A stretch of DNA of 64,000 bases from Clostridium thermosuccinogenes (GTDB lineage: Bacteria > Bacillota > Clostridia > Acetivibrionales > DSM-5807): positions 2,009,665 through 2,073,664 of the forward strand of contig NZ_CP021850.1 in the NCBI RefSeq assembly GCF_002896855.1, written 5' to 3'. Within the stretch, counting starts at the first letter, position 1. The number at the start of each line of letters is the position of its first letter. The notes beneath the pieces are model-generated. The model saw nothing but the letters and a program-made list of their open reading frames with translations, was not told the origin of the DNA and searched no databases. The position numbers and the translations under genes were made by a program. Positions 34,898 through 58,284 of the stretch are shown here, piece by piece.

Positions 34898-37516
34898 TTA
34901 TACGATTCTTTTAAACATCTTTTCCAGTTCATATTTAGTAAGCCGTACAATTGTTGGACGTCCATGGGGGCAAGTATATGGATTTTCCAGTTTGTCCAAA
35001 TCCTCCAGTATTTTTCTTATTTCCATCTCGTCCAGCCGCTTGTTTGCTTTTACTGCAGCCTTACAAGCCATGGTGTATATCGCGTCGTCGGCGATTTTTC
35101 TGTAGTTGTCCTTGCCGGCCTTGGTTACACTGTCCACAACATCCAAAAAAACGCTTTTTACAGGCTCATCAATGCATGCAAAGGGCACGGATCTCAGTAT
35201 AATGGAATTATTGCCAAAATCCTCATAAATAAAACCCAGTTTATTGAAAAATTCTCTTTCTTCCTGCAGTAGCTTTAGCTCCTGATTGGTAACTTCTATA
35301 ACAATGGGAGCTAGCAGCTCCTGGGATAGAGATTCGTTATCCATAAACTTTTTCTTCATCGCTTCATAAGTTATACGCTCATGGGCGGCATGCTGGTCTA
35401 TAAGCATCAGCTCGTCCTTATGCTGCAAAATGATATAGGTTGAGAAAGCCTGACCAACCAACGTACACTCGCTTAAAGACATTTCAGCTTCAGGAGTCTT
35501 TTCACCATAACGGGATGACACCTCGCGGAAGGTTTCAGCATCGGAGCTTTGAAATTTAACATCCTCGTCTATGGCAAGGGATGCTTTTTCTTCATATCCT
35601 GCTTTGGCTTTTCCTATTCCGGTTTCGTTTGTCAAGGTCAAGTCTTCTTCAAATTCGTCTTCTCCGGTTGCGCTTGGAACACTTTCTACTGCTCCATGTT
35701 TTATTGATCCAGCTTCGCTTGCAGTAAATTCATTTATATCGATTTTTTGCGCTTCCCTTTCGTATGCTGTAATACCTCTTGCATTGAATCTTTCTGTTTC
35801 ACCCTTGAATGCAGAAACATCTCTTGTACCGGATTCTCCTGCTTCACCTTTGTACGCTGTAATATCTCCTACATTGGACTTATCTGCTTCGCCTTTATAT
35901 GCTGTAATATCTCCTACATTGGACTTATCTGCTTCGCTTTTATATGCTGTAATATCTCCTACATTGGACTTATCTGCTTCGTCTTTATATGCAGTAATAT
36001 CTCTTACATCCGGTTTATCTGCTTCAACTTTGTATGCTGTAATATCCCTTCCATCGGATTTATCTGCTCCGTCTTTGAATGCTGTAACTTCCCTTGCATC
36101 GATTTTCGTTGTTTCATCTTTGCAATCTGTAATTTCCCTTTCGTCGATTTCTTCTTCAGCTTTGCTTGGGAAATTATATTTTTCTCCGGGTGACTCCATC
36201 CAGGCGTTGCTTGCTGTAGTGTCTTTTGTCGAAGTTTTTTGTGCTCCGGTTATGTTTGAGAAGCTTTCTCTCGCTGCGGCTCTTCCTGTTCCGCTTTCCC
36301 ATGCCAGAGCTTCTCCTGCTATATAATTTGCTCCTTTTGTGCCCTCTATTTCATGCCGCTTTGCTTCCTCTGTCCTGGCTTCTTTTGTCCCGGTTTTTTT
36401 CTTATCCAACACCGGATTTATCCCGGAATATATATCCTGCTGCAAAAAGTCCCCATTGGCCTTTTCAAAGCCGTCGAACTTGAATATATTGCTATCCTTG
36501 CTTTCCAGGCGCACCGTCCTTATGAGGGATGTACCCAGAAGAGCGTTGTTTACTGCATGGTAAACGATTCTAAAAATCTTTTGCTCTTCGGAAAACCTCA
36601 CTTCCATTTTTGTCGGATGGACGTTTATGTCAATCAGAAGGGGATTCAATTCAATATTTAACACAATAAAAGCAAACTTGTTTTTCATCAAAAGCGTTTT
36701 ATAAGCTTCGTCGATGGCCGAGCTTACCAGCTTGCTTTTTATATACCTTCCATTGACAAATATAGTCTGATGGCTTCTTGTACCTCTTGCAATTTCTGGC
36801 TTTCCTGCATATCCGGTAACCCTTATGCCGCTTTCTTCATAATCGATCCTGACCACCTGCCGGGCAACCTCTTTGCCATATACGCTGAAAATAGTGCTTA
36901 ACAGGTCATTATTGCCAGGGGTATGAAGAACCTGGGAATGATTGCTAACCAATCTGAAGGAAATGTGAGGATTGGCAAGAGCTATCCTGCTTACCAGATC
37001 AGACACATATCCGGCTTCGGTGCTGTCCTTTTTCAAAAACTTAAACCTGGCAGGAGTATTGTAAAACAAGTCTCTGACTATAAAGGTAGTCCCTACGGGA
37101 CAGCCGGTTTGTCTCACATCCTGTACGGTTCCGCCCTGGATTTTTATATAGGTTCCGTGAGGTTTTTCCCTAACTCTCGTTGACACTTCAACGGTTGAAA
37201 CGGCTGCAATGCTTGCCAGGGCTTCGCCTCTAAAGCCCATGGTTATAATCGACTCCAGGTCGTCAGCATGCCTTATCTTGCTGGTTGCGTGCCTCTCGAA
37301 AGCAATTTCAAGATCATCCTCTTCTATGCCTGAACCGTTGTCAACTACCTTGATATAGCTTATCCCGCCGTTTTTGATCTCTATGGAAATGCTTTCAGCT
37401 CCTGCGTCTATGGAATTTTCCACCAGTTCCTTTACCACCGATGCAGGTCTTTCCACCACTTCTCCTGCAGCTATTTTATTTGCCGTGTTTTCGTCAAGAA
37501 TTATTACCTTGCCCAT
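34898..37516 (-). CDS. mutL: DNA mismatch repair protein MutL with repeat-expanded linker
   Basis: Mismatch-repair ATPase/endonuclease, 872 aa against the usual 600-680. The N-terminal GHKL ATPase (1-about 335) is intact: AAGEVVERPASVVKELVENSIDAG, VDNGSGI, GFRGEALASI. The C-terminal domain (about 680-872) keeps the endonuclease motif DQHAAHERITYE, the MACKAA block and CPHGRP. The excess length is a linker of about 340 residues (340-680) dominated by nine 15-residue tandem repeats at 461-595. The frame is open throughout. It starts 11 bp after mutS; both are likely co-translated. Function should be retained, since linkers are poorly conserved. Confidence 0.96.
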   Translation of the reverse strand: MGKVIILDENTANKIAAGEVVERPASVVKELVENSIDAGAESISIEIKNGGISYIKVVDNGSGIEEDDLEIAFERHATSKIRHADDLESIITMGFRGEALASIAAVSTVEVSTRVREKPHGTYIKIQGGTVQDVRQTGCPVGTTFIVRDLFYNTPARFKFLKKDSTEAGYVSDLVSRIALANPHISFRLVSNHSQVLHTPGNNDLLSTIFSVYGKEVARQVVRIDYEESGIRVTGYAGKPEIARGTRSHQTIFVNGRYIKSKLVSSAIDEAYKTLLMKNKFAFIVLNIELNPLLIDINVHPTKMEVRFSEEQKIFRIVYHAVNNALLGTSLIRTVRLESKDSNIFKFDGFEKANGDFLQQDIYSGINPVLDKKKTGTKEARTEEAKRHEIEGTKGANYIAGEALAWESGTGRAAARESFSNITGAQKTSTKDTTASNAWMESPGEKYNFPSKAEEEIDEREITDCKDETTKIDAREVTAFKDGADKSDGRDITAYKVEADKPDVRDITAYKDEADKSNVGDITAYKSEADKSNVGDITAYKGEADKSNVGDITAYKGEAGESGTRDVSAFKGETERFNARGITAYEREAQKIDINEFTASEAGSIKHGAVESVPSATGEDEFEEDLTLTNETGIGKAKAGYEEKASLAIDEDVKFQSSDAETFREVSSRYGEKTPEAEMSLSECTLVGQAFSTYIILQHKDELMLIDQHAAHERITYEAMKKKFMDNESLSQELLAPIVIEVTNQELKLLQEEREFFNKLGFIYEDFGNNSIILRSVPFACIDEPVKSVFLDVVDSVTKAGKDNYRKIADDAIYTMACKAAVKANKRLDEMEIRKILEDLDKLENPYTCPHGRPTIVRLTKYELEKMFKRIV
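35732..36136 (-). repeat. Nine 45-bp tandem repeats inside mutL
   Basis: Nine consecutive units of exactly 45 bp (405 bp) encode 15-residue repeats, MutL residues 461-595, with consensus DITAYKGEADKSNVG. Units 4-6 (35867-36001) are nearly identical; the outer ones are diverged (for example EITDCKDETTKIDAR and GITAYEREAQKIDIN). A degenerate tenth unit may follow (596-610). The pattern is that of a minisatellite growing from the centre by slippage or unequal recombination while keeping the reading frame. Confidence 0.95.
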
Positions 37517-56057: not shown

Positions 56058-57956
56058 TTGAAACCAATTTTAAACAATGGAAAAGCTAATTTAAATATTA
56101 ATATTGAGATCATAGAGCCTCAAAAAGCTCTGTATTGGATCGCTTTTTTTGCAGGGTTCCTGATCAAGCTGACTTATTTTAATTATTCCGTCGGTTTGAA
56201 TTTCGGAAGTATATTGACATCGCCAAACAGCCGTATGTTCATATCAACTTTTTTCTTTCTTTTGCTTGTTGCAGCCATAGTATTTGTACTGTTTAACAAG
56301 AAGAGATATATTGCTCTGCTGGTTGTAGATGTGCTCATTACGATTTTGCTGGTGGCTGATATCCTTTATTTCCGCTATTACCGCTGCCCTATTACCCTGC
56401 CGGTTCTAGCGCAAATAAGCCTTGTGGCTCCTGCCGGGGATAGCATAAATGTGCTGTTAAATCCGACGGATGTCATTCTCATATTGGAAATTCCGGTGCT
56501 CCTTCGCTTGCTGTTTTTGTTCAGAAAGTCCGGCGTAAAAAGCATCCCCTTCCCCACCAGGTTGGTTACGGGGGTTCTTGTCGCTGCAATATCCATAGGT
56601 GCATTGCGCTTGTTCTATAAGAACTCAGATATCCCCATGTTCAATTATGACAGGAATTATGTCGCCAAGGAGCTTGGCATACTTTATTTTCATGTGCATG
56701 ACGTACAGGCTTATGTGAATGAAAATATACTTACCAATAAAGTATTGACAAAAGAGGACAAGCAGCTTATAGAAGAATTTTACGCAAATAAATCCAAGGT
56801 GCCCAAAACTGATAACTATCATGGCATTGCCCAGGGTAAAAACCTTATAATGATGCAGCTTGAGTCTTTTCAGGCCTTTTTACTCAACCGGGAAATTGAC
56901 GGAAGGGAGATCACACCCAACCTTAACAAACTGCTGAAAGAAAGCGTATTTTTTGAAAATTTCCATTACCAGGTTGGGGGCGGAAATACTTCCGATGCGG
57001 AATTCCTGTCCAACAACTCCCTTTACCCGGCACAACAAGGTGCGGTTTATTTCCGGTATCCTGGGAACACATATCATTCCCTTCCTAAATTATTGAAGAA
57101 ACAGGGTTATGATACCTATGTGTTCCATGCTTATCATCCCAGCTTCTGGAACAGAGCGAACATGTACAAGGCCGTAGGCTTCGACAAGTTCTACAGCAGC
57201 GGTGATTTTATAACACCCGCAGAAGAAATTGAAGGCTGGGGCTTGGGAGATAAATCCTTTCTGCTGCAGTCCCTGGAAAAGATTGATAAATCAAAACCTT
57301 TTTACAGCTTTATGATCACTCTGTCCAGCCACTACGCTTATGGATCTTTTGAAGATAACGATGAATTCGATGTCGGTGAATATGAAGGAACCACATTCGG
57401 AAATTACATTAAAGCCGCCCATTACGTAGATAGCGCCATCGGGGGCTTTTTGGAGGAGCTTAAAAAGCAAGGCTTGTATGATAATACCCTGTTGGTTTTC
57501 TATGGGGACCATCATGCTTTCCCCAAGGACAAATCGGAAGATATGCAGCATTTCTTGGGGATTGACGACAGTGAATTCGAATGGCTGAAGTATCAGAAGG
57601 TTCCTCTTATCATCCACTATCCCGGTTTGAAAAACGGTGAGGTTATGGATATTACCGGAGGTCAGATAGATATACTGCCGACAGTGGCAAACCTTATGGG
57701 ATTTGAAGTTCCCTATGCCATGGGCAAGGATTTGCTGAATTCAGAGGAAGGATATGCTATACTTAGAGGCGGTTCATATATTACCGATTCATATATATAC
57801 ATCAGCAACCTGGGAGAAGCCTTCGATAAAAAGACCGGGCGTAAACTGGAAGAAAAGGAGTACGAAAAGGACTTCGAGAGGTTTGAAAAGGAATTGGAGG
57901 TTTCGGATACCATACTGCACAAAAACGCCTTTAAATACAAATTAAATATAAATTAA
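56058..57956 (+). CDS. LTA synthase-type sulfatase (copy 1)
   Basis: Membrane phosphoglycerol transferase family, 632 aa: five N-terminal membrane segments (to about 195) and an extracellular sulfatase-like domain. Catalytic residues as in LtaS: E269 (MQLESFQ), the nucleophile T311 (GGGNTSDAEF), D484 and H485 (YGDHHAF). TTG 56058 is preferred as AAAGGGG is eight bases upstream; TTG 56040 overlaps it. It is third in murT-gatD-LTA synthase, closed by a strong terminator. It is close to copy 3 (60.5 kb) in sequence and should make or modify a glycerophosphate polymer. Confidence 0.9.
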   Translation: MKPILNNGKANLNINIEIIEPQKALYWIAFFAGFLIKLTYFNYSVGLNFGSILTSPNSRMFISTFFFLLLVAAIVFVLFNKKRYIALLVVDVLITILLVADILYFRYYRCPITLPVLAQISLVAPAGDSINVLLNPTDVILILEIPVLLRLLFLFRKSGVKSIPFPTRLVTGVLVAAISIGALRLFYKNSDIPMFNYDRNYVAKELGILYFHVHDVQAYVNENILTNKVLTKEDKQLIEEFYANKSKVPKTDNYHGIAQGKNLIMMQLESFQAFLLNREIDGREITPNLNKLLKESVFFENFHYQVGGGNTSDAEFLSNNSLYPAQQGAVYFRYPGNTYHSLPKLLKKQGYDTYVFHAYHPSFWNRANMYKAVGFDKFYSSGDFITPAEEIEGWGLGDKSFLLQSLEKIDKSKPFYSFMITLSSHYAYGSFEDNDEFDVGEYEGTTFGNYIKAAHYVDSAIGGFLEELKKQGLYDNTLLVFYGDHHAFPKDKSEDMQHFLGIDDSEFEWLKYQKVPLIIHYPGLKNGEVMDITGGQIDILPTVANLMGFEVPYAMGKDLLNSEEGYAILRGGSYITDSYIYISNLGEAFDKKTGRKLEEKEYEKDFERFEKELEVSDTILHKNAFKYKLNIN

Positions 57957-58103
57957 ACTGGTATTTTGAATTTATAGCCGGTGCAAATTTTTATTGACAA
58001 GCATTATTGATGGCGAAGTTATGAGTAAAAGTGCAGCTTCGATAATGGATTATTAAATTAAATTATTAATTAATATGATGATAAAGACTATGGTAAAAGG
58101 AAA

Positions 58104-58210: not shown

Positions 58211-58259
58211 TTTCTAAAAGCTTAACTTCTAAATGCTTATCTTCTAAATGTTTACTTCT
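58211..58259. repeat. Short tandem repeat, unit CTTCTAAATGYTTA
   Basis: Three to four imperfect units of 14-15 bp in a row: TTTCTAAAAGCTTAA, CTTCTAAATGCTTAT, CTTCTAAATGTTTA and a partial CTTCTA. Just beyond the stop of the minus-strand gene. Confidence 0.65.
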
Positions 58260-58284
58260 ATACCCTGATGTTCATAAGGCTTCA

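Follow-up and report, generated by a model that had tools for sequence, protein, structure and literature searches.

An in-frame minisatellite in the MutL linker of Clostridium thermosuccinogenes: probably turnover of repeats in a tolerant spacer and not a mutation switch

Within the 64,000-nucleotide stretch of the Clostridium thermosuccinogenes genome analysed here (the window; contig NZ_CP021850.1, positions 2,009,665 to 2,073,664), the mismatch repair gene mutL carries a tract of 45-bp tandem repeats, which raises the question of whether this tract acts as a reversible mutation switch, as proposed in a sequence-only reading of this DNA, or reflects the way in which the linker of the protein evolves. 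As detailed below, we consider it probable that the tract, an in-frame minisatellite in a linker predicted to be disordered, reflects recurrent turnover of repeats in a tolerant spacer and not a mutation switch. Comparisons involved 58 genomes of the same order contributing one MutL each (among them one of C. thermosuccinogenes, the only one from its family) and a non-random sample of 82 MutLs from outside the order, while arrays were called at a TRF score of at least 80.

The genetic context is that of a mismatch repair locus, with the gene order MutS (40152–37528), MutL and MiaA (34866–33913), and all three products contain domains above the Pfam cut-offs. HATPase_c_3, DNA_mis_repair and MutL_C score well over the cut-off in MutL (Table 1), as expected for a GHKL ATPase with its transducer domain, and the AAGEV and GFRGEAL motifs are invariant among 21 aligned MutL rows. 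At the other end of the protein, a DQHA(x)2E(x)4E motif is accompanied by CPHGRP (residues 849–854), as in endonuclease-type MutLs, i.e., those without MutH. The DQHAAHE and CPHGRP motifs, together with the clamp-type glutamine of QELLAP (cf. QEMIVP in the clamp-binding motif of B. subtilis; PMC6393296), are kept throughout the same 21-row alignment. Judged by these motifs, MutL of C. thermosuccinogenes appears to be a normal-looking endonuclease-type protein, and the earlier statement that its ATPase and endonuclease motifs are intact was borne out. Two open antisense ORFs on the + strand over the array (35571–36326 and 35747–36193) were set aside as genes, as they found no support.

Table 1. 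Features of mutL in C. thermosuccinogenes (positions in the window) and repeat arrays in the MutL linkers of other members of the order.
Feature	Residues	Position	Strand	Basis or detail
mutL	872 from ATG (open frame 879)	34898..37516	-	ORF list; Pfam HATPase_c_3, DNA_mis_repair, MutL_C
ATPase and transducer domains (MutL N-terminal)	1–326	36539..37516	-	Pfam 25–119 and 211–326; AlphaFold2 mostly confident
Linker motif FKFDGFEKANGDFLQQDI	345–362	36431..36484	-	order-wide F-K-F...[YF]xQ[QE]x[LIF]; FLQQDI = 357–362
Decayed upstream units	402–446 (starts 402, 417, 432)	36179..36313	-	in-phase matrix scan, p = 3e-4 vs codon shuffles
Nine in-frame 45-bp units	461–595	35732..36136	-	sequence, self-comparison
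Near-identical core units 4–6	506–550	35867..36001	-	42–44 of 45 nt alike
Decayed downstream units	596–640	35597..35731	-	45-nt self-shift p = 7e-4; unit at 596 p = 0.014
MutL C-terminal dimerisation/endonuclease domain	687–828	35033..35458	-	PF08676, E = 9e-42
Endonuclease motif DQHAAHERITYE	707–718	35363..35398	-	sequence; D707 and H709–R714 invariant (21-row alignment)
Clamp-binding-type motif QELLAP	732–737	35306..35323	-	sequence; Q732 invariant (21-row alignment)
Linker array of L106				pentapeptide ESNTA/VELNT; 14.7 copies of 15 bp
Linker array of L097				LKSEGIDSKDILDGN; x3.3 at 99%, three almost perfect copies
Linker array of L090				unit KDEVIN
Linker array of L010/L134				unit QTFGQTQGNPIHAH

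The sequence-only reading had described nine in-frame units of 45 bp (15 residues), and their ORF, coordinates, length and count were all confirmed. At a shift of 15 residues, the best linker stretch yielded 75 matches out of 120, whereas none of 10,000 shuffled linkers gave more than 23, so that units with a length that is a multiple of 3 bp recur beyond chance within one ORF, as is characteristic of an in-frame intragenic minisatellite. The central copies had been called almost identical, which holds for units 4–6 only: these core units share a 43-bp exact repeat at a spacing of 45 bp, whereas the other six share 26–37 of 45 nucleotides with the core units and among themselves. This combination of a near-identical core and diverged edges supports the tandem duplication that had been read as recent. 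Elsewhere in the genome, no protein-level copies of the repeat were found, and DNA matches were limited to 19–32 bp, i.e., chance level. Pentapeptide arrays in relatives and raised matches at shifts of 5, 10 and 20 residues had also hinted that the core unit might have an underlying period of 5 residues, but this idea was dropped because the consensus unit showed no significant signal (p = 0.26). The window contains other short tandem repeats at 58212–58260 (15 bp, 3.3 copies) and 57931–57957 (11 bp, 2.5 copies).

It is extremely unlikely that the recorded repeat number is wrong through misassembly. Tandem repeats are a known source of assembly errors (PMC6868369); nevertheless, the genome consists of one contig of 4.73 Mb and, since the units are not identical, with strong divergence in the outer ones, these 405 bp of distinguishable copies should be easy to assemble. 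A miscount could be conceived for units 4–6 only.

Differences between adjacent units across units 1–9 are spread about evenly over the three codon positions (30/25/26), which suggests that constraint on the sequence of the repeat is weak. This spread argues against a fixed functional repeat, in which every 15-residue unit would be a selected binding site for multivalent docking of the clamp, MutS or another partner. Retention of a DITAYKxEADK pattern in copies 3–6, and the presence of 54 charged residues out of 135 and nine aromatic residues in the nine-unit array, would be compatible with such sites. However, the outer units are decayed, no structure is predicted for the array, and the unit is missing from every relative, so that we deem selected binding sites very improbable.

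Since faint older copies were detected on both flanks (Table 1), the array appears to have once comprised more than nine units, spanning roughly residues 402–640; the same scan picked up nothing in stretches of the ATPase and C-terminal domains that served as controls. The earlier bounds of 461–595 are thus right for the nine units but not as the ends of the array, as decayed units lie beyond them on both sides. Without residues ~402–640, the linker would measure about 120–130 aa, which is inside the range of relatives.

Modelling with AlphaFold2 (21-row alignment) assigned a pLDDT below 50 to residues 345–677, almost without secondary structure, while the flanking domains were mostly well modelled. 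The array is hence predicted to sit in a disordered spacer between the ATPase and endonuclease domains. This linker of ~359 aa is the longest of the 58 in the order (mean ~167 aa), and the open frame of 879 is likewise the longest; the other open frames measure 595–795 aa, meaning that the earlier comparison of 872 aa with about 650 aa was correct in its first number but slightly low for the clade in its second. Over 140 distinct MutLs, linker length has a median of 152 aa and extremes of 67 and 359 aa, with N- and C-terminal domains recognisable throughout. Two MutLs from another family of the class (L146, 840 aa, and L147, 820 aa) have acidic and hardly repetitive linkers of 292–320 aa, so length also arises without arrays. 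Like the C. thermosuccinogenes linker, the arms of MutL homologues elsewhere (~100 aa in E. coli MutL, PMC6902014; ~160 aa in yeast Mlh1 and ~290 aa in Pms1, PMC6393296) join an ATPase domain to a C-terminal domain, are disordered and vary in length. The C. thermosuccinogenes linker differs from the E. coli and yeast arms in that its extra length is a recognisable tandem array.

These properties bear directly on the proposed reversible switch, in which changes in copy number or frame of the array would turn mismatch repair off and on. There is published precedent for mutL repeats as mutability switches, i.e., the 6-bp repeats in mutL of Salmonella and E. coli, and a catalogue of short repeats in both mutL and mutS covers more than 100 species (PMC2955026). 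Moreover, the long exact repeat in the core would permit slippage or recombination. The likeness extends to the presence of a tandem repeat within the mutL coding sequence, whereas the enterobacterial repeat consists of 6 bp x3, with loss of a copy inactivating MutL (PMC2955026), and the array described here consists of 45-bp linker units whose changes in length are apparently tolerated. Neither of two marks of a phase-variable switch, a repeat change that inactivates MutL and a short slippery tract that shifts the frame, is apparent here: gain or loss of whole units adds or removes multiples of 45 bp, which preserves the frame within a linker predicted to be disordered, and the slippery tracts of mutL (one A7, one T7 and one (AT)4) all lie outside the array. 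Both alternative reading frames run into stops inside the array, so a frameshift there would be a plain null mutation, which the array does nothing to promote. The enterobacterial 6-bp repeat acts in the ATP-binding fold, while the array is found in the linker. Finally, linker length varies widely among MutLs with intact domains, and shortening the E. coli MutL linker by 40% produces no mutator phenotype (PMC6902014). The reversible on/off mutator was thus not upheld, and we judge such a switch to be highly improbable.

Clear tandem arrays were found in 10 of the 58 MutL linkers of the order, compared to none of the 82 from outside it. Their units differ (examples in Table 1), are unrelated to that of C. 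thermosuccinogenes and are always in frame. No unit like DITAYKGEADKSNVG was present in the other MutLs of the order, similarity to the linkers of relatives was not above shuffle expectation, and the sister MutLs have array-free linkers of 173 and 130 aa. The lineage specificity that the sequence-only reading had proposed to check by comparing relatives was thereby established. On a tree constructed without the linker, the array trait required nine gains or losses, at least eight of which are forced by well-supported branches, and where congeners have low-complexity linker text in common, its quantity and periodicity vary between them. Because of these nine changes and the differences between congeners, arrays can be said to arise and vanish on the time scale of genera, and the C. 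thermosuccinogenes array, having no related unit, is a lineage-specific instance of this turnover.

Whether MutL linkers are special repeat hot spots was addressed with the disordered N-terminal region of IF-2 from the same order, scored in 22 of 50 frames, i.e., those reaching far enough upstream. Thirteen of the 22 scored regions contained arrays at a TRF score of at least 80, a 36-bp unit reaching 16.7 copies. Six IF-2 proteins of related genomes (L192, L196, L200, L204, L207 and L208) have 36-bp in-frame arrays of ~11 to 17 copies that are 88–94% alike. The IF-2 arrays are larger than any MutL array, and the hot-spot idea was rejected on the basis of these 22 regions. The IF-2 arrays resemble the mutL array in being in frame, in occupying a disordered region of a housekeeping protein and in differing between related species, while being larger and more frequent than mutL arrays. 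Since the disordered region of IF-2 carries even larger arrays, repeat turnover is not peculiar to mismatch repair, and housekeeping proteins of this order seem, from these sequences, to expand generally by tandem duplication in their disordered parts. The IF-2 of C. thermosuccinogenes itself, however, carries no array at a TRF score of at least 80, and in a 448-kb sample of its genome that covers infB, no tandem repeat other than the mutL array reached such a score inside a long ORF. In C. thermosuccinogenes, the array is therefore more than mere background, which is a point against the reading preferred here.

Not all of the linker varies freely. About 31 residues into it, [YF]xQ[QEKN]x[LIFM] occurs in 50 of the 58 MutLs of the order (against a mean of 2.3 and a maximum of 7 for shuffled linkers), often preceded by F-K-F, while the rest of the linker around it is unalignable among the MutLs of the order (L083–L140). 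Outside the order, the motif was not above chance (5 of 82 MutLs; shuffles mean 1.9, maximum 6). Its Q-x-x-[LIF] spacing only loosely resembles that of clamp-binding peptides. Since eukaryotic MLH1 carries a conserved linker motif (PMC10325900), and since in yeast MutL-alpha a 20-residue linker stretch with a critical tyrosine in Pms1 outweighs linker length (PMC6393296), the F-K-F...[YF]xQ[QE]x[LIF] motif may, by analogy, be the functional part of the linker, possibly for docking. A different conserved stretch resembling NPRxDFFxxMxAKTYR was seen by eye near the linker start of Oscillibacter-type MutLs (L029, L034, L055, L060, L073 and L074), suggesting that linker motifs are clade-specific.

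Tuning of linker length, which the sequence-only reading had also raised, may be conceived as a quantitative role. Such a role would have copy number set the reach of the MutL arms, and hence roadblock bypass or nicking distance, and vary under selection. In E. coli, shortening the linker from 100 to 60 residues left mutation avoidance intact in vivo but abolished roadblock bypass, with loss of incision beyond roadblocks, in vitro (PMC6902014). In yeast, shortening of the disordered region impairs diffusion and nuclease activity, and repair is ablated when both linkers of Mlh1-Pms1 are shortened; the yeast data also indicate that linker sequence can matter, which goes against the view of a free spacer (PMC6393296). 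Likewise, copy number of the in-frame repeat tract in E. coli tolA alters phenotype, contraction occurring largely by RecA at 6.9e-5 (about 7e-5; PMC3477136). As in mutL, this is a tract in a single gene that changes copy number without breaking the frame, although tolA variation was seen between strains and in culture, whereas the mutL array is known from one genome, and units and proteins are unrelated. Moreover, having the longest linker of 58 could hint at selection for length, which counts against a neutral spacer. Nevertheless, no set linker length is conserved, since linkers of 67–359 aa all go with recognisable N- and C-terminal domains and the sisters have only 130–173 aa, and we therefore find selected tuning of reach rather unlikely. 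The bolder version, a contingency-like length dial in which copy number varies within populations and sets MutL reach, giving graded and reversible repair without loss of function, and which evolved several times in the order with different repeats, appears very improbable.

We thus return to an in-frame minisatellite in a tolerant spacer as the preferred reading. A 45-bp stretch would have been duplicated in tandem several times within the C. thermosuccinogenes lineage, via replication slippage or unequal recombination, with units 4–6 being the newest and the oldest units having decayed to the barely recognisable flanks. Because disorder is predicted for the spacer and its sequence is largely unconstrained, whole-unit changes would be tolerated provided that the folded domains and the short motif at the linker start stay in place, and this tolerance would in turn allow arrays to be repeatedly born, mutated and lost across the order. 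The lengthened arms would still allow MutL to form a dimer around DNA, and any effect on its reach would be no more than quantitative. We infer the slippage or recombination mechanism, the near-neutrality of the changes and the unchanged state of repair from these patterns.

The mutL array is a further case of a known kind of feature, i.e., the in-frame intragenic minisatellite, and the presence of larger arrays in IF-2 of the same order is a warning that repeats in repair genes need not be mutator switches. The survey separates a conserved short motif, which is probably functional, from a freely varying spacer. Finally, the order constitutes a natural series of MutL linker lengths, in which the same folded domains are joined by arms of roughly 80 to 360 residues, and which offers a way to ask if linker length affects repair in endonuclease-type MutL.
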